Positions 3,563-10,146 of a stretch of DNA of 40,029 nt are shown piece after piece. The notes beneath the pieces were generated by a model. That model made no database searches. It saw only the letters and a program-made list of their open reading frames with translations, and had not been told where the DNA came from. Each line of letters starts with the position of its first letter. Within the stretch, counting starts at the first letter, position 1. Position numbers and translations under genes: made by a program. The stretch is from an uncultured Caryophanales bacterium (GTDB lineage: Bacteria; Bacillota_I; Bacilli_A; RF39; UBA660), in NCBI GenBank assembly GCA_948433085.1, contig CAOJDP010000005.1:1-40029 (forward strand), given 5' to 3'.

Positions 3563-3591
3563 TTTGCAAATACCTTTCTATATAGTATAAT
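3563..3591 (+). promoter_or_regulatory. Probable sigma-A promoter of the cas operon
   Basis: TTTGCA at 3563-3568, a 17-base spacer and a perfect TATAAT at 3586-3591. It predicts a transcript starting near 3598 and a leader of about 200 bases before cas9. That leader runs antisense through the whole tracrRNA gene. The -35 box is imperfect, so the call is moderate. Confidence 0.55.
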
Positions 3592-3658
3592 TAAATTAAT
3601 AAAAATATGGCAAAAACTGGAAATGCAATTGTTAGTTTTTTAAATGACTTGGAGAAAC

Positions 3659-3765
3659 AAAAAAAGTTGCCTAAGCAACTACACTCATCATAATGAGTAT
3701 TTAGGGTAATACAATTGTAAAACCTTTATTTTAACTCTCTATGTCATCTTAAATGGTATTAAGAC
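3659..3765 (-). ncRNA. tracrRNA of the type II-A CRISPR system
   Basis: Read on the minus strand, the RNA begins with an anti-repeat (3765 down to about 3728) complementary to nearly the whole 36-base CRISPR repeat. The 26 bases at 3740-3765 match the repeat with one mismatch. Near the other end the pairing is broken by an extra GAG opposite one A, giving the bulged lower stem typical of Cas9 guides, followed by GTTAAAATAAAGG, which resembles the Streptococcus pyogenes tracrRNA. Next come a nexus-like hairpin (about 3703-3724), a hairpin with stem ACTCAT/ATGAGT (3683-3698), and a terminator stem GTTGC/GCAAC (3666-3679) with seven U (3659-3665). Predicted length is about 107 nt. Its promoter lies at 3772-3801. 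Confidence 0.9.
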
Positions 3766-3771
3766 AACTAC

Positions 3772-3801
3772 ATAATACCATAGTAGTAGGAGGTATGTCA
3801 A
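3772..3801 (-). promoter_or_regulatory. tracrRNA promoter overlapping the cas9 RBS
   Basis: On the minus strand: consensus TTGACA (3801-3796), an 18-base spacer, then TATTAT (3777-3772). Transcription would start about 7 bases further, at 3765, exactly the first base of the anti-repeat. The spacer contains the complement of the cas9 Shine-Dalgarno AGGAGG (3788-3793), and the -35 box abuts the cas9 start codon at 3802. Confidence 0.8.
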
Positions 3802-6800
3802 TTGAAAAAATACAACATTGGACTAGATATTGGTACAACATCAGTTGGATGGGCAGTAGTGGAAAAAGAAAATTTTAAAGTAATGAAAAAGGGAAGAAAA
3901 AAAATGTGGGGCGTTAGATTATTCGATGAAGCAACTTCTGCAGCTGAGCGAAGAGGTTATCGTAACACGAGAAGAAGGTATGATAGAAGAAGAAAACGAA
4001 TTCAATTATTACAAAAGGAATTTCAAAAAGAAATGAATTTAGTAGACCCTAATTTTTATCAAAAATTAAAAGAAGCATTTTTTCATGAATGTGATATCTT
4101 CAATAAGACAACAATAATATCACAAGAAGAAAAAGAACAAATGAAAACATACTATAAATTATATCCAACAATCTATCATTTAAGAAATGAACTTGTGCAT
4201 ACAACAGAAAAAATAGATATCCGTTTGGTTTATCTTGCAATTCATCATATTGTGAAATACCGTGGTAATTTCTTATACGAAGGTGCAAAATTTAATACCA
4301 GTCAGTTACAATTGAATGAAAAAATAAATGAATTATTTCATGTAATTGACATAACAAATGGAACAATCGAACATCATAGTGAAATGATAGAATTATTAGA
4401 CAGTTTAAAACTAGAAGAAGCGCTTCTATTAGAAAACAAAAATGAGCAGCGAATTTATATAAAAGAAGCACTACAAAATTATTTTTCAAAAAATTTTATA
4501 TCCGAATTTACAAAAATGATTTTGGGAGACAACTTTTCTGTTGCTAAACTTTTTGACGTAGAACTAGATCCAGATATAAAACTCAACTTCAAAGGGTCTG
4601 ATTATGATGAAAAATTTGCACAATTAGAAAAAGAAATAGGAAACCAAATCGATATATTAAAAGAAATGAAAAGTTTATATGATATCTTATTTTTAAAAAA
4701 ACTATTAGAAGGAGAAGATGAGGGTAATATTTCTGCAATAATGGTAAAGCGTTATCAGACACATAAACAAGATCTGAACCTTTTAAAATCAGTTTTAAAG
4801 CAAAAAAAAGAAACCTATAAACAAGTTTTCAAATCAAATCAAAAACTTTGCCTTTATGAACAATACTGCCACAATCATATTACCTACGATGAATTTACAA
4901 AAAAAATTCTCAATTTTTTGGAAAAAGAAGATATCAGCGATAATAGCATTCTATTAAAAAAGAGAATAGAAACAGGTAAATTTTTACCACGTATTACTAA
5001 TATTGAAAATGGAAAATTTCCATATCAACTAAATTATAGTGAACTTATTTCCATCATAGAAAACCAAGGAATATATTATCCATTTTTAAAAGAGAAAGAA
5101 AACAATACATATAAATTAATCCAGTTATTACAATTTCGCATTCCTTATTATGTTGGTCCATTAAATAATACAACAAATACCCTAAAAAAGAATTCAAATG
5201 CATGGGCAATTAAAAAAGAGAATGTCGCCTGTATTACGCCATATAACTTTAAAAAAGTAATGGATTTAGATGCATCGGCAGAAGAATTTATTCTACGTAT
5301 GATAGGGAAATGCACATACTTATTAAAAGAAAAAGCACTGCCAGAGGCTTCTATTTTGTATTCTAAATTTAAAGTATTAAATGAATTAAAACAAATTAGA
5401 ATAAATGGACGAAAATTAGAACTTGAAATACAACAAAAGATTTATAAGGATTTCTTTTTAAAAAATAGTGGCAATTTAACAGACAATCGTTTTAAAACCT
5501 TCTTATATCAAATGCCTGAAATGAGAATGTATGATGATCTTACCATTACAGGATATTCTGCTGATATGAAATTTGCAAATACAATGCAATCTTATATTGA
5601 TTTTTTTGGAGAAAATGGAATATTTGAAGGAACTTCATACGATGAAAAAGATGCAGAACAACTGATTTCATGGATTACTATATTTGAAGATCAAGAAATT
5701 TTAAAACGAAAAATAGAAGCACACTATTCCTTGAACGAAACTAAAATAAATTGTCTACTAAAAAAGAAATATAAAGGGTGGAGTAATTTATCAAAACGTC
5801 TTCTTATAACCAAATATTATCAAAATTCTAATGCAATAACCAAACAGTCTATTTTAGACTTAATGGAAACAACAGAAGAAAACTTCATGCAAATATTATA
5901 TAATAGAAAATATAAATTCCAAGATATGATTGCACAAATCAATGGAAACGAAATGTCACAAAAATTAAATTATGAAGTGGTAAGTGAACTTGCAACTTCT
6001 CCAGCAGTGAAAAAAGGGATTTATCAAGCTTTATTACTAGTAGAGGAAATTATAAGTATTATGGGCTACGAGCCAAACCAAATTACCATAGAAATGGCTA
6101 GAGGAGACGAGAAAAAAGAACGAAAGAGTGATCGTAAAAAATGGATAGAAAATTTATTTACAAAGTGTAAACAACAAATTACAAACTATAATCAATTAAA
6201 AAAAGAATTGGATCGGTTTGAATCTATTGATTCTCAAAAACTATTTCTATATTTTATCCAAGAAGGAAAAAGTTTGTATTCAGGAACGCCTTTGGATATA
6301 GAAAAATTAAATTCTTATGAAATTGATCATATTATCCCAAGAACACTTTGGAAAGATGACTCCATTGATAATAAAGCCCTAGTCTTAAAAAAAGAAAATC
6401 AGGAAAAAGCAGCAGCTTTTGTATTACCATCAAAATTCCGAAACGACGCTATGCGAAAATGGTGGGATCACTTAAAACTAAATGGATTGATTTCGAGTAA
6501 AAAATATCATAATCTATGTAGAAGTAAATACACAATAGAAGATATTGAGGGATTTATCAATCGACAATTAGTAGAAACAAGACAGATTACAAAAAATGTA
6601 GCCAATATTATTCAAAAGTATCATCCAGATTCTAAACTGATATATATCCCCGCTAGTTTATCCCATAATTATAGAGAAAAATTTGAATTATTTAAATTTA
6701 GAGAAATCAATAATTTTCATCATGCACATGATGCTTATCTAGCAGCAGTCTTAGGAGAATACAAAGTTTCTTACTTAAAGGAAGCAATGGATTATGAACA

Positions 6801-7797
6801 ATTAAAAGAACTAACTACACAATGGATGAATCATAAAAATTACAAAGAACTAAACTATGGATATGTAATAAATAGTTTAGATAACAAGTTTCCTAGGTAT
6901 GATTTAAATGGGGAAATTGTGTTTCATCCGATTGATTTTAATCAAACAGTCAAGAACACATTATATCAAAATGATGTAATCATTAGTAAAAAAACAGAAA
7001 TGAAAACTGGAAAGTTTTATAAGGAAACCATTCATTCTAAAAGAGCAAAAGGAAATAAACTTTCCCTTAAAAAAGGTTTAGATCCAAAATTATATGGTGG
7101 CTATCAAGACATTGAAGTTGCTTATACCATTCTTGTATATTATCAAAACCAATATAAATTAGTAGGGATTCCTATTCTGATTTACAAACAAGCACAAAAG
7201 AATACAGATATTATTATGGAATATGTAAAAGAACATTTAAAATTAAAGGAAAATGATTCCTGTACATTAATAAAAGATAAAATTTTCTTTAATACTTTAT
7301 TTCTTTATAAAGGTCAATATGTTTATTTAAGGGGGTATTCTACCGAATCTAAAGGCTGTGAAATTGCGAATGCCACTGAGCTAAAAATACCACGAAAAAA
7401 AATGGAACAATGGAAATATACCCTGAATTATGTCTTAAATGATAAAAAAGTTCCCAACAATTTAGAGGAACTGCTAACAGAGGATAAGATAGAAGCACAG
7501 ATGAATGAAATAATACAATGGCTACTTTCTAAGCAAGAATATTATCCACTGTACACAAGTGCAATTGAAAAAATTAAGACGGTATTCAATGAGATAAATT
7601 TATCTTTTGAAGAACAAAAACGAGTTATTAAAGAGTTATTTATTTTATATGGTACAAGTCGAAATGCAAATTTATCTTTCATTGAGAATGGAGGATTAAG
7701 TGACCGCATTGGAAGATTGAGCGGAAAAAATGTGAATCATGGGATTATTTTTTATCGTTCCATATCTGGTTTAAAGGAAAGATATTATGAGTTTTAG
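3802..7797 (+). CDS. cas9: CRISPR-associated endonuclease Cas9 (type II-A)
   Basis: RNA-guided DNA endonuclease that uses crRNA:tracrRNA to cut both strands of invading DNA, and also helps choose PAM-flanked spacers. The 1331 residues are in the II-A size range. RuvC-I: Asp9 in IGLDIGTTSVGW. Arg-rich bridge helix at about 50-75 (AERRGYRNTRRRYDRRRKR). RuvC-II: Glu764 in ITIEMARGDE. HNH: Asp842-His843 in YEIDHIIPRT and Asn857 in DSIDNKAL. RuvC-III: His974 and Asp977 in HHAHDAYLAAVLG. All catalytic residues are kept, so the enzyme should be active. The start is TTG, chosen because AGGAGG (3788-3793) lies 8 bases upstream; the ATG at 3795 is out of frame. The C-terminal PAM-interacting region (roughly 1060-1331) does not allow a PAM guess by eye. 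It overlaps cas1 by 11 bases. Confidence 0.97.
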   Translation: MKKYNIGLDIGTTSVGWAVVEKENFKVMKKGRKKMWGVRLFDEATSAAERRGYRNTRRRYDRRRKRIQLLQKEFQKEMNLVDPNFYQKLKEAFFHECDIFNKTTIISQEEKEQMKTYYKLYPTIYHLRNELVHTTEKIDIRLVYLAIHHIVKYRGNFLYEGAKFNTSQLQLNEKINELFHVIDITNGTIEHHSEMIELLDSLKLEEALLLENKNEQRIYIKEALQNYFSKNFISEFTKMILGDNFSVAKLFDVELDPDIKLNFKGSDYDEKFAQLEKEIGNQIDILKEMKSLYDILFLKKLLEGEDEGNISAIMVKRYQTHKQDLNLLKSVLKQKKETYKQVFKSNQKLCLYEQYCHNHITYDEFTKKILNFLEKEDISDNSILLKKRIETGKFLPRITNIENGKFPYQLNYSELISIIENQGIYYPFLKEKENNTYKLIQLLQFRIPYYVGPLNNTTNTLKKNSNAWAIKKENVACITPYNFKKVMDLDASAEEFILRMIGKCTYLLKEKALPEASILYSKFKVLNELKQIRINGRKLELEIQQKIYKDFFLKNSGNLTDNRFKTFLYQMPEMRMYDDLTITGYSADMKFANTMQSYIDFFGENGIFEGTSYDEKDAEQLISWITIFEDQEILKRKIEAHYSLNETKINCLLKKKYKGWSNLSKRLLITKYYQNSNAITKQSILDLMETTEENFMQILYNRKYKFQDMIAQINGNEMSQKLNYEVVSELATSPAVKKGIYQALLLVEEIISIMGYEPNQITIEMARGDEKKERKSDRKKWIENLFTKCKQQITNYNQLKKELDRFESIDSQKLFLYFIQEGKSLYSGTPLDIEKLNSYEIDHIIPRTLWKDDSIDNKALVLKKENQEKAAAFVLPSKFRNDAMRKWWDHLKLNGLISSKKYHNLCRSKYTIEDIEGFINRQLVETRQITKNVANIIQKYHPDSKLIYIPASLSHNYREKFELFKFREINNFHHAHDAYLAAVLGEYKVSYLKEAMDYEQLKELTTQWMNHKNYKELNYGYVINSLDNKFPRYDLNGEIVFHPIDFNQTVKNTLYQNDVIISKKTEMKTGKFYKETIHSKRAKGNKLSLKKGLDPKLYGGYQDIEVAYTILVYYQNQYKLVGIPILIYKQAQKNTDIIMEYVKEHLKLKENDSCTLIKDKIFFNTLFLYKGQYVYLRGYSTESKGCEIANATELKIPRKKMEQWKYTLNYVLNDKKVPNNLEELLTEDKIEAQMNEIIQWLLSKQEYYPLYTSAIEKIKTVFNEINLSFEEQKRVIKELFILYGTSRNANLSFIENGGLSDRIGRLSGKNVNHGIIFYRSISGLKERYYEF

Positions 7798-8653
7798 GAC
7801 TGTTGTCATTACAAAACAAGCAAAGTTGAATTATCAAAATCGCTTTCTGGTAGTCAAGAATGGAATAGAAGAATCATACATTCATTTATCTGAAATTGAT
7901 ACAATCCTTGTAGATTCCATTTCAGTTTCAATTTCTTCTTATTTGTTAAAAGAATTATCACAAAATAAAATTAATATTATATTTTGTGATGAAAAACATA
8001 ATCCTTTTGGAGAATTAAAATCATTTTATATGAGACATAATTCTAGTAAGATGTTAATGTTGCAAATGAAATGGACACAAAAGCAAAAAGATCAATTATG
8101 GAAACAAATTGTTATAAATAAAATTACAAATCAAATTTGGGTATTGCAAAAAATAAAATCCAAAAATGTAGAGCGATTGCTTTCCTATATAGATGTTCAA
8201 ATAGGGGATAAGACAAACCGTGAAGGACATGCTGCTAAAGTTTATTTTAACTCTTTGTTTGGCACTAGTTTTATTAGAAATCATGATGATTCTATCAATG
8301 CTGCACTAAATTATGGATATGCAATTTTATTATCTACAATCAACAAAGAAATTATTAGCCTTGGACTTTTAACTCAACTTGGAATTCATCACAAAAATGA
8401 GTTCAATGAATTTAACTTAAGTTGCGATTTAATGGAACCGTTTCGACCTATTATCGATTCCTTTGTTTTTTACAATCAAACTAGGGAATTGAATCAAGAA
8501 TACAAAATGGACATTGTAAATATATTCAATAATACGTTTCAATATAAAGGGAAACAATATACACTAAAAGATATAATAAAATTATACGTGAAGAATGTTG
8601 TAGATGTTTTAACAACAAAAAAAGAATATGAAGGTTTTATTTATGAGGGATAG
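7787..8653 (+). CDS. cas1: CRISPR integrase Cas1 (type II)
   Basis: Metal-dependent integrase that, with Cas2, inserts new spacers at the leader end of the array. The 288 residues fit type II Cas1. An N-terminal beta domain (1-75) is followed by a helical catalytic domain. The metal site is visible: Glu146 in NREGHAAK, His201/202 in LGIHHKNEFN, Asp214 and Glu217 in CDLMEPFRP. The start lies inside the last codons of cas9 and is preceded by AAAGGAAAG. The overlap indicates one polycistronic mRNA with translational coupling. Nothing suggests inactivation. Confidence 0.96.
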   Translation: MSFRTVVITKQAKLNYQNRFLVVKNGIEESYIHLSEIDTILVDSISVSISSYLLKELSQNKINIIFCDEKHNPFGELKSFYMRHNSSKMLMLQMKWTQKQKDQLWKQIVINKITNQIWVLQKIKSKNVERLLSYIDVQIGDKTNREGHAAKVYFNSLFGTSFIRNHDDSINAALNYGYAILLSTINKEIISLGLLTQLGIHHKNEFNEFNLSCDLMEPFRPIIDSFVFYNQTRELNQEYKMDIVNIFNNTFQYKGKQYTLKDIIKLYVKNVVDVLTTKKEYEGFIYEG

Positions 8654-8963
8654 AGTTATGCGTACAATTGTATTTTTTGATTTACCCAATGTATATGCTA
8701 AGGACAAAAGAAATTATATGTTATTTCGGAAATTTTTGATGAATGAAGGATTTATTATGATGCAGGAATCAGTATATTCAAAGATTGTTTTAAATTCTCA
8801 GCAAGCAAATTTATTATTAAATCGTGTGAAAAAAAATTCTCCTAAAAAGGGATTCATTCAACTTTTAACAATTACCGAAAAACAATATGCAAATATTGAA
8901 TATATAGTAGGGGAGTCCAATACAAAAATTATAAATAACGAGGAGCGATTAATTATATTATGA
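8643..8963 (+). CDS. cas2: CRISPR adaptation protein Cas2
   Basis: Small ferredoxin-fold protein that bridges two Cas1 dimers in the spacer-integration complex. From the start at 8643 it has 106 residues. That start gives an N-terminus of the same length as in S. pyogenes Cas2 (MRDRVMRTIVFFDLP), with Asp13 after the first beta strand. The segment KFLMNEGFIMMQESVYSK and the later LLTITEKQ are family hallmarks. An ATG at 8628 extends the frame but has a poor context; an ATG at 8658 (Shine-Dalgarno GAGGGA) is a real alternative. It overlaps cas1 by 11 bases and csn2 by 4. Confidence 0.92.
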   Translation: MRDRVMRTIVFFDLPNVYAKDKRNYMLFRKFLMNEGFIMMQESVYSKIVLNSQQANLLLNRVKKNSPKKGFIQLLTITEKQYANIEYIVGESNTKIINNEERLIIL

Positions 8964-9634
8964 AATTATGTATGCGTTATTTTAATCACGACATTGTCTT
9001 TAAAAATGGATGTGTATCTACATTAGAGATAGAAAATAAAGATTATTTTTACCGTATAATCAATGATTTAACGCAATTAGAAAATAGCTTATATGTTGAA
9101 AATATTCAATTTTTAGAGGATAATGGAAATGAATTTAAGCACTTATTGATTAAAGTTATTATTAATTATTTTTCATTTAATTTTGATTCTACTAAAATGA
9201 ATAATTATATTGTAAAACAAATAATTAGTAGTATGGAAAGTCAAGAGACAGAGTACATCAATAAAGAATTTCAAAAGATTTGCAAATGTTTTGTGAAAAT
9301 TCTGGAAAAATTGGATTTGCCATTAGCATTTTGTGAAGAATTAAATATGGAATCTTTTATTAAATTATTAAAGATTCATATTTGTTCAAAAAACAAGTTA
9401 ATAAATAATTTACTGTTAATTATAGATATTAATACAGTATTAGAACATAATGATCTACTTATTTTTGTCAATTTAAAACAATATTTAACAAAGGAAGAAT
9501 TAATAGAATTATATAAATATTCTGTATATAATGAGGTAAGATTATTGTTGATTGATTCTCAACCTTATGGTCCCAAGATTGATTATGAAAATAAATTATT
9601 AATTGATGAAAATTTGGATGAATTTGAGTTATAA
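8960..9634 (+). CDS. csn2: Type II-A adaptation protein Csn2
   Basis: Csn2 forms a calcium-dependent tetrameric ring that slides on double-stranded DNA ends and is needed for spacer acquisition in type II-A systems. The 224 residues match short (streptococcal-type) Csn2 (about 220). The C-terminal part LLIFVNLKQYLTKEELIELY, then VRLLLIDSQP, closely follows the S. pyogenes pattern (LLIFVN, then FLTKDEV, then LFLEP). Sequence identity elsewhere is low, as usual for this family. Its position directly after cas2 (4-base overlap) and before the array supports the call and defines the locus as subtype II-A. Confidence 0.88.
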   Translation: MKLCMRYFNHDIVFKNGCVSTLEIENKDYFYRIINDLTQLENSLYVENIQFLEDNGNEFKHLLIKVIINYFSFNFDSTKMNNYIVKQIISSMESQETEYINKEFQKICKCFVKILEKLDLPLAFCEELNMESFIKLLKIHICSKNKLINNLLLIIDINTVLEHNDLLIFVNLKQYLTKEELIELYKYSVYNEVRLLLIDSQPYGPKIDYENKLLIDENLDEFEL

Positions 9635-9714: not shown

Positions 9715-10146
9715 GTTTTAAATCTATGTCATCTTAAATGGTATTAAAACTTGTTGTTCAGGAGTTAATGCTGATGACCAGTTTTAAATCTATGTCATCT
9801 TAAATGGTATTAAAACCGATAATTTCAATAACCATCTTAAATCTAAGTTTTAAATCTATGTCATCTTAAATGGTATTAAAACTGATATTGATGCTAAAAA
9901 GATAACAGTTGAGTTTTAAATCTATGTCATCTTAAATGGTATTAAAACTTTTTACCTGGAATAGATTACCTTTACGAAGTTTTAAATCTATGTCATCTTA
10001 AATGGTATTAAAACTACTTTTTCATTACGAGCTTTTCTTACATGGTTTTAAATCTATGTCATCTTAAATGGTATTAAAACTGCAAAAAGAAATGCACGAA
10101 TTGACTACATGTTTTAGATCTATATCATCTTAAGGCGTATTAAAAA
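9715..10146 (+). CRISPR. Type II-A CRISPR array, 7 repeats and 6 spacers
   Basis: Repeats are 36 bases, starting GTTTTAAATCTATG and ending GGTATTAAAAC. They lie at 9715-9750, 9781-9816, 9847-9882, 9913-9948, 9979-10014, 10045-10080 and 10111-10146. The first six are identical; the last has several substitutions (GTTTTAGATC at its start and TAAGGCGTATTAAAAA at its end), marking the trailer side. All six spacers are exactly 30 bases. The repeat ends are complementary (GTTTTAA/TTAAAAC). Orientation + is fixed by the tracrRNA anti-repeat, by GTTTTA at the repeat 5' end and by the degenerate distal repeat. No spacer was seen to match elsewhere in this window. Confidence 0.98.

Follow-up and report, generated by a model that had tools for sequence, protein, structure and literature searches.

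The window, by which we mean the whole 40,029-nucleotide stretch of DNA analysed here, from an uncultured Caryophanales bacterium of the gut, holds a complete type II-A CRISPR–Cas system. The genes cas9, cas1, cas2 and csn2 lie in one operon, each scoring above the cut-off of its family model, and are accompanied by an array of 36-nt repeats and by a tracrRNA with a complementary anti-repeat and a terminator (Table 1). The tracrRNA gene is antisense, located between a Dps-like gene and cas9, and has the canonical type II-A anatomy; its anti-repeat pairs with the array repeat GTTTTAAATCTATGTCATCTTAAATGGTATTAAAAC, and the two RNAs cofold as expected. A scan of the window with Rfam returned nothing at gathering score, and in one relative (L126) the Rfam tracrRNA model reached 27 bits, below its gathering score of 70.

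Table 1. Features of the type II-A locus in the window, and positions of a hairpin found in the cas leaders of relatives
Feature	Position	Strand	Basis or remark
Candidate cas operon promoter, TTTGCA-17-TATAAT, start ~3598	3563..3591	plus	upstream of the tracrRNA 3' end; enriched in relatives
tracrRNA gene, ~109 nt: anti-repeat, nexus, hairpin, intrinsic terminator	3657..3765	minus	terminator stem 3680-3665, then T run
tracrRNA anti-repeat	3728..3765	minus	repeat match D2, alignment, RNA cofold with repeat
Predicted tracrRNA start (G), anti-repeat base 1	3765..3765	minus	offset 0 in 38/45 family loci
Extended -10 of the tracrRNA promoter, TGG-TATTAT	3772..3780	minus	TG in 43/45 family loci; third base free
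cas9 Shine-Dalgarno sequence, AGGAGG	3788..3793	plus	inside the tracrRNA promoter spacer
-35 of the tracrRNA promoter, TTGACA	3796..3801	minus	plus strand TGTCAA is the cas9 SD-start spacer; TTGAC core here in 41/46 family loci
cas9, 1331 aa, TTG start	3802..7797	plus	NCBIfam TIGR01865, 805 bits; Pfam REC/PI/RuvC/HNH
cas1 (type II)	7787..8653	plus	TIGR03639
cas2	8628..8963	plus	TIGR01573
csn2 (type II-A marker)	8960..9634	plus	TIGR01866, PF09711
CRISPR array, 7 repeats of 36 nt, 66-nt spacing, last degenerate	9715..10146	plus	repeat detection
Leader hairpin in cas leaders of relatives	L126 5302-5353; L070 1799-1850; L067 1847-1898		
Leader hairpin, further cas leaders	L081, L083, L076, L125, L133, L145, L080, L121, L087		weakly also L086
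Leader hairpin, other family genomes	include G695, G475, G439, G007		

The predicted tracrRNA promoter consists of TTGACA and TATTAT (3777-3772) on the minus strand, 18 nt apart, and matches the consensus at 11 of 12 positions. It ranks first among the 15 promoter-like matches between 3000 and 4400, and its score was never reached when the local 60 bp were dinucleotide-shuffled 2000 times. A preliminary description of the window had given the coordinates, the 18-base spacer and the strand of this promoter correctly; the TG at 3780-3779, which makes the -10 an extended one, was absent from it. Transcription is predicted to begin 7 nt past the -10, at a G (conserved at 96%) that is the first base of the anti-repeat, in agreement with the start proposed at the outset. 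An inverted repeat around this position, ATGGTATT..AATACCAT, formed by the extended -10 and the anti-repeat, was considered as an operator and rejected: the third base of the TGn motif varies freely in relatives, so that conservation at this repeat is limited to the extended -10.

The same segment is also where translation of cas9 begins. The TTG codon is the only in-frame upstream-most start, with an in-frame stop at -15, and an out-of-frame ATG at 3795 was discarded as a start, being unusable 1 nt past the Shine-Dalgarno (SD) sequence. The SD lies inside the spacer between the -35 and the -10, and the gap between the SD and the TTG is occupied by the -35, which bears out the described overlap of the promoter with cas9 translation initiation. 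The element shared by the tracrRNA promoter and the cas9 ribosome-binding site is the -35, rather than the SD. The further claim that any mutation of the ribosome-binding site alters the promoter was overstated, because the SD sits in the -35/-10 spacer: substitutions in the SD fall in that spacer, and only indels or changes to TGTCAA affect both elements.

For comparison, we gathered cas9 loci from 40 genome stretches together with 78 record-titled loci, many of the surveyed loci being metagenome bins; these came down to 93 distinct start regions, Listeria L199 included. Relatives of the window locus were found by an alignment-based contig search, a single-protein query having given none. The resulting family set of 46 distinct loci comes from about two dozen genomes, nearly all of different genera, and from record-titled contigs (uncultured Bacilli, Candidatus Pelethosoma and Scybalousia) whose membership is inferred from the placement of their Cas9 in the tree. 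All 46 loci have the anti-repeat, and in 45 of them a promoter with a TTGAC core is aimed at it; the remaining one (L124) seems to have such a promoter by eye. The -35 begins at most 8 bp from the cas9 start in 41/46 loci, and in 12 its first base faces the start-codon A (offset 0). Among the 45 promoters, the -35 and -10 are separated by 17 bp (33 loci), 18 bp (11) or 16 bp (1). The TG of the extended -10 is present in 43 of the 45 (96–98%), a -10 statistic computed on loci pre-selected for TTGAC, with TG itself not a selection criterion, and the predicted tracrRNA start coincides with anti-repeat base 1 in 38. The alignment of relatives, suggested earlier as a check, thus found ribosome-binding site and promoter conserved together. 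Judged from these alignments, the same DNA bases do both jobs in the window and in dozens of relatives, the predicted tracrRNA promoter lying reversed within the cas9 translation-initiation stretch.

The conserved TGTCAA nearly always adjoins the start codon, as would be expected if it served cas9 in translation or in protein binding and were not a promoter -35. We consider this reading extremely improbable, because TGTCAA is missing before 212 other SD-led genes of the same loci (GTCAA at -13 to +3 in none of them; the two matches listed are cas9 genes), and because it is fixed at 16–18 bp from the extended -10 and at a set distance from the anti-repeat, whereas its position relative to the start codon ranges between 0 and -21. 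The variation comes from loci with a displaced -35, which in L075, L086, L121 and L125 lies between -19 and -21, ahead of the SD and with no overlap; L124 is probably also displaced, by about 20 bp, without overlap. In the first four the 17-bp spacing is kept and the predicted start is 0 to 2 nt from the anti-repeat, the start-codon distance being what has changed. Since the displaced loci keep both the spacing and the anti-repeat offset, the element travels with the tracrRNA, and we take the conserved element to be a tracrRNA promoter that stays with the anti-repeat.

Relatives with a displaced promoter had been named in the preliminary description as the case that would speak against its proposal. 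They do exist, in the loci just listed, which shows that the overlap can be lost, and Listeria L199 is likewise without overlap; in 41 family loci the two elements coincide. On the Cas9 tree the overlap clusters by descent, with 12 state changes compared with 24.6 in shuffles (at least 10–12 changes). The displaced and missing states are scattered over the tree, which indicates that the overlap of promoter and cas9 start is strongly favoured, but not obligatory. One genome of the survey (G607) carries two separate type II-A cas9 loci, C66 (L076) and C51 (L083), which have different repeats and show the overlap in each.

Of 33 loci with an anti-repeat outside the family, mostly from Bacillota, 19 show the overlap. 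Cultured strains that have it include Thomasclavelia saccharogumia DSM 17460 (L170), Faecalibacillus faecis and Sharpea azabuensis DSM 18934, whose locus appears as both L150 and L092. No overlap was seen in the Companilactobacillus, Lachnospiraceae and Listeria loci. In L092, L094, L097 and L157, which are of the Sharpea, Faecalibacillus and Thomasclavelia types, the overlap is kept and the predicted tracrRNA start falls about 14 nt before the anti-repeat. Two loci from Clostridia (L166 and L169) have TAGACT in place of the conserved -35, at the same position before the start codon.

Just 37 bp separate the anti-repeat, and with it the tracrRNA start, from the cas9 start codon, which leaves no room for a cas promoter between them. 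Over the 45 family loci, plus-strand promoter scores rise above those of shuffles in one region only, upstream of the tracrRNA 3' end (mean z 1.65), where an extended -10 occurs in 23 loci against 2.2 expected; inside the tracrRNA there is none (1.2 expected), and further upstream the count is hardly above expectation (4 versus 1.8). The candidate in the window itself is a moderate one, with 10 of 12 consensus positions and without the TG. If the cas operon began within the tracrRNA gene, at a promoter that shares bases with the tracrRNA -10, it would have a very short leader and would form a divergent pair with the tracrRNA instead of an antisense one; the AT-rich -10 region does give weak plus-strand matches in several loci (starts at -9 to -19). 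Such an internal start is nevertheless very unlikely in our judgement, as over the 45 loci this region does not outscore its shuffles (mean z 0.08, with no extended -10), in contrast to the enrichment upstream of the tracrRNA. With plus-strand promoters enriched only there, the leader of the cas mRNA should be about 200 nt long and antisense to the whole tracrRNA. The cas mRNA therefore probably runs antisense through the entire tracrRNA and its promoter.

In about a dozen family loci, the window not among them, a conserved hairpin of the form AAAGnGCUAGUACAGACUUUA...GUACUGGC-UUUUUU, with the consensus also seen as AAAGnGCUAGUACAGACUUUA...GUACUnGC-UUUUUU, lies just past the predicted cas start (Table 1). 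Of 117 family genomes, 34 contain matches to a covariance model of this hairpin, sometimes in several copies, and it also precedes unrelated genes, such as those for AMP-binding ligases and kinase-like proteins; at the thresholds used, the model did not find it in the genome of the window. The hairpin has no credible match in Rfam, and its assignment to SpF36 was rejected (24 of 48 bits, matching only as an AT-rich hairpin). It looks like a candidate dispersed leader attenuator.

The comparisons with S. pyogenes and S. agalactiae rest on published descriptions of these loci. As in the window, the S. pyogenes locus has the order cas9-cas1-cas2-csn2, a tracrRNA upstream of and antisense to cas9, and the same anti-repeat, nexus and terminator anatomy. 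S. pyogenes makes tracr-L and tracr-S forms and its Pcas is autorepressed (Workman 2021 as cited in PMC8616872; PMC11417352); in streptococci, Cas9 is directed by tracr-L to the cas promoter (PMC11417352, PMC8616872). S. pyogenes thus has two tracrRNA promoters and a tracr-L-repressed cas promoter, whereas the window locus presents a single tracrRNA promoter signal, nested in the cas9 ribosome-binding site. The streptococcal scheme also places the cas promoter between tracrRNA and cas9 (PMC12216829), and here the difference from S. pyogenes pointed out in the preliminary description is upheld, no plus-strand promoter signal being present inside the tracrRNA or between it and cas9. For a second, long-form tracrRNA promoter, the first 200 nt of cas9 showed no minus-strand excess at the sequence level (45 loci, mean z -0.04). 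The longest guide-like matches of a tracr-L to the cas promoter region were of 8 and 10 nt, compared with the 11 nt plus PAM of a tracr-L guide, and lay within the range of shuffles.

A closer parallel to the predicted cas leader is found in S. agalactiae, in whose locus, near-identical to that of S. pyogenes, the autorepressed promoter is the cas9-proximal one. A second, distal cas promoter, P2cas, is the sole one left in CC-17 (PMC12216829), and an RNA of about 100 nt antisense to the tracrRNA 3' end has been reported (PMC4448216). The predicted cas promoter upstream of the tracrRNA 3' end would give an antisense leader of the P2cas kind, with cas transcription entering from upstream of the tracrRNA and crossing it; no overlap with the cas9 start is described for the S. 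agalactiae tracrRNA promoters, unlike that of the window. In Listeria monocytogenes (NZ_LR134400.1, L199), an antisense tracrRNA likewise lies a short distance before cas9, with its anti-repeat at about -61, and a plus-strand promoter of the TATAAT type can be recognized by eye upstream of the tracrRNA, but the tracrRNA promoter is upstream of the SD and there is no overlap. No description of an overlap between tracrRNA promoter and cas9 start was found in the openly accessible literature searched.

We think it likely that both parts of this arrangement go together, namely a tracrRNA promoter nested in the cas9 start and a cas operon transcribed antisense across the tracrRNA from an upstream promoter. 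Each cas transcript, beginning upstream of the tracrRNA 3' end, would then cross the tracrRNA gene and its promoter head-on, and its leader would be perfectly complementary to the tracrRNA. Interference may arise between polymerases that start at the two promoters, and the tracrRNA may pair with the cas leader, resulting in titration or in cutting by RNase III. As about 23 nt separate the SD from the tracrRNA 5' end, and hence from the tracrRNA-antisense part of the predicted leader upstream of it, this pairing would not cover the ribosome site, and RNase III cutting of the duplex would leave an mRNA with an intact SD. Interference or pairing might in this way couple the output of Cas9 and tracrRNA without the tracr-L feedback of streptococci. 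A nested promoter with obligate antisense read-through implies at least potential interference, and this layout makes it plausible that tracrRNA and Cas9 levels are coupled. The tracrRNA promoter might thereby block the cas transcript and set the ratio of tracrRNA to Cas9, as envisaged in the preliminary description.

The overlap can also persist without a regulatory effect. The main rival to coupling is a neutral architecture, in which a compact tracrRNA-cas9 module is inherited as a block, the SD-start spacer is a convenient place for the -35, and polymerase traffic is too low to matter; we give it somewhat less than an even chance. It agrees with the AT-rich and compact nature of these genomes, with the clustering of the overlap by descent and with the existence of displaced variants, and, as SD function tolerates any spacer sequence, TGTCAA costs nothing. 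It is less easily reconciled with the retention of the overlap in so many family loci despite a divergence of Cas9 to about 50% identity and variable upstream intergenic lengths (the cas promoter of L080 is near -437). As read from the aligned loci, this persistence shows that both elements are constrained, without showing the same for the overlap as such. At the other extreme, coupling could take the form of a reciprocal switch in place of tracr-L feedback, with strong cas transcription clearing the tracrRNA promoter and strong tracrRNA transcription stopping cas elongation, so that the locus would be in either a guide-loading or a Cas9-making state. In line with such a switch, which we nonetheless hold to be rather unlikely, the two promoters necessarily face each other, so that cas transcription would have to pass that of the tracrRNA; in many relatives both have a strong consensus match, and there is no sign of a tracr-L start. 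Similarly doubtful is the broader proposal that a widespread class of type II-A systems is self-regulated through nested promoters rather than through tracr-L, with cas and tracrRNA transcription mutually exclusive owing to the place of the tracrRNA promoter in the cas9 initiation region, where cas transcription has to cross it, and the cas leader acting as an antisense sponge of the tracrRNA.

For the type II-A loci of this clade, the results provide a rule that helps in finding tracrRNAs: the tracrRNA starts at anti-repeat base 1, and its -35 is the SD-start spacer of cas9. The arrangement also bears on the design of constructs, where a cas9 moved with its native ribosome-binding site brings an antisense promoter along, and a recoded spacer in that site would silently kill the tracrRNA. 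If the overlap does couple the two products, it would represent a second, guide-independent way of balancing Cas9 and tracrRNA, in a large group of systems that seemingly do without tracr-L feedback.
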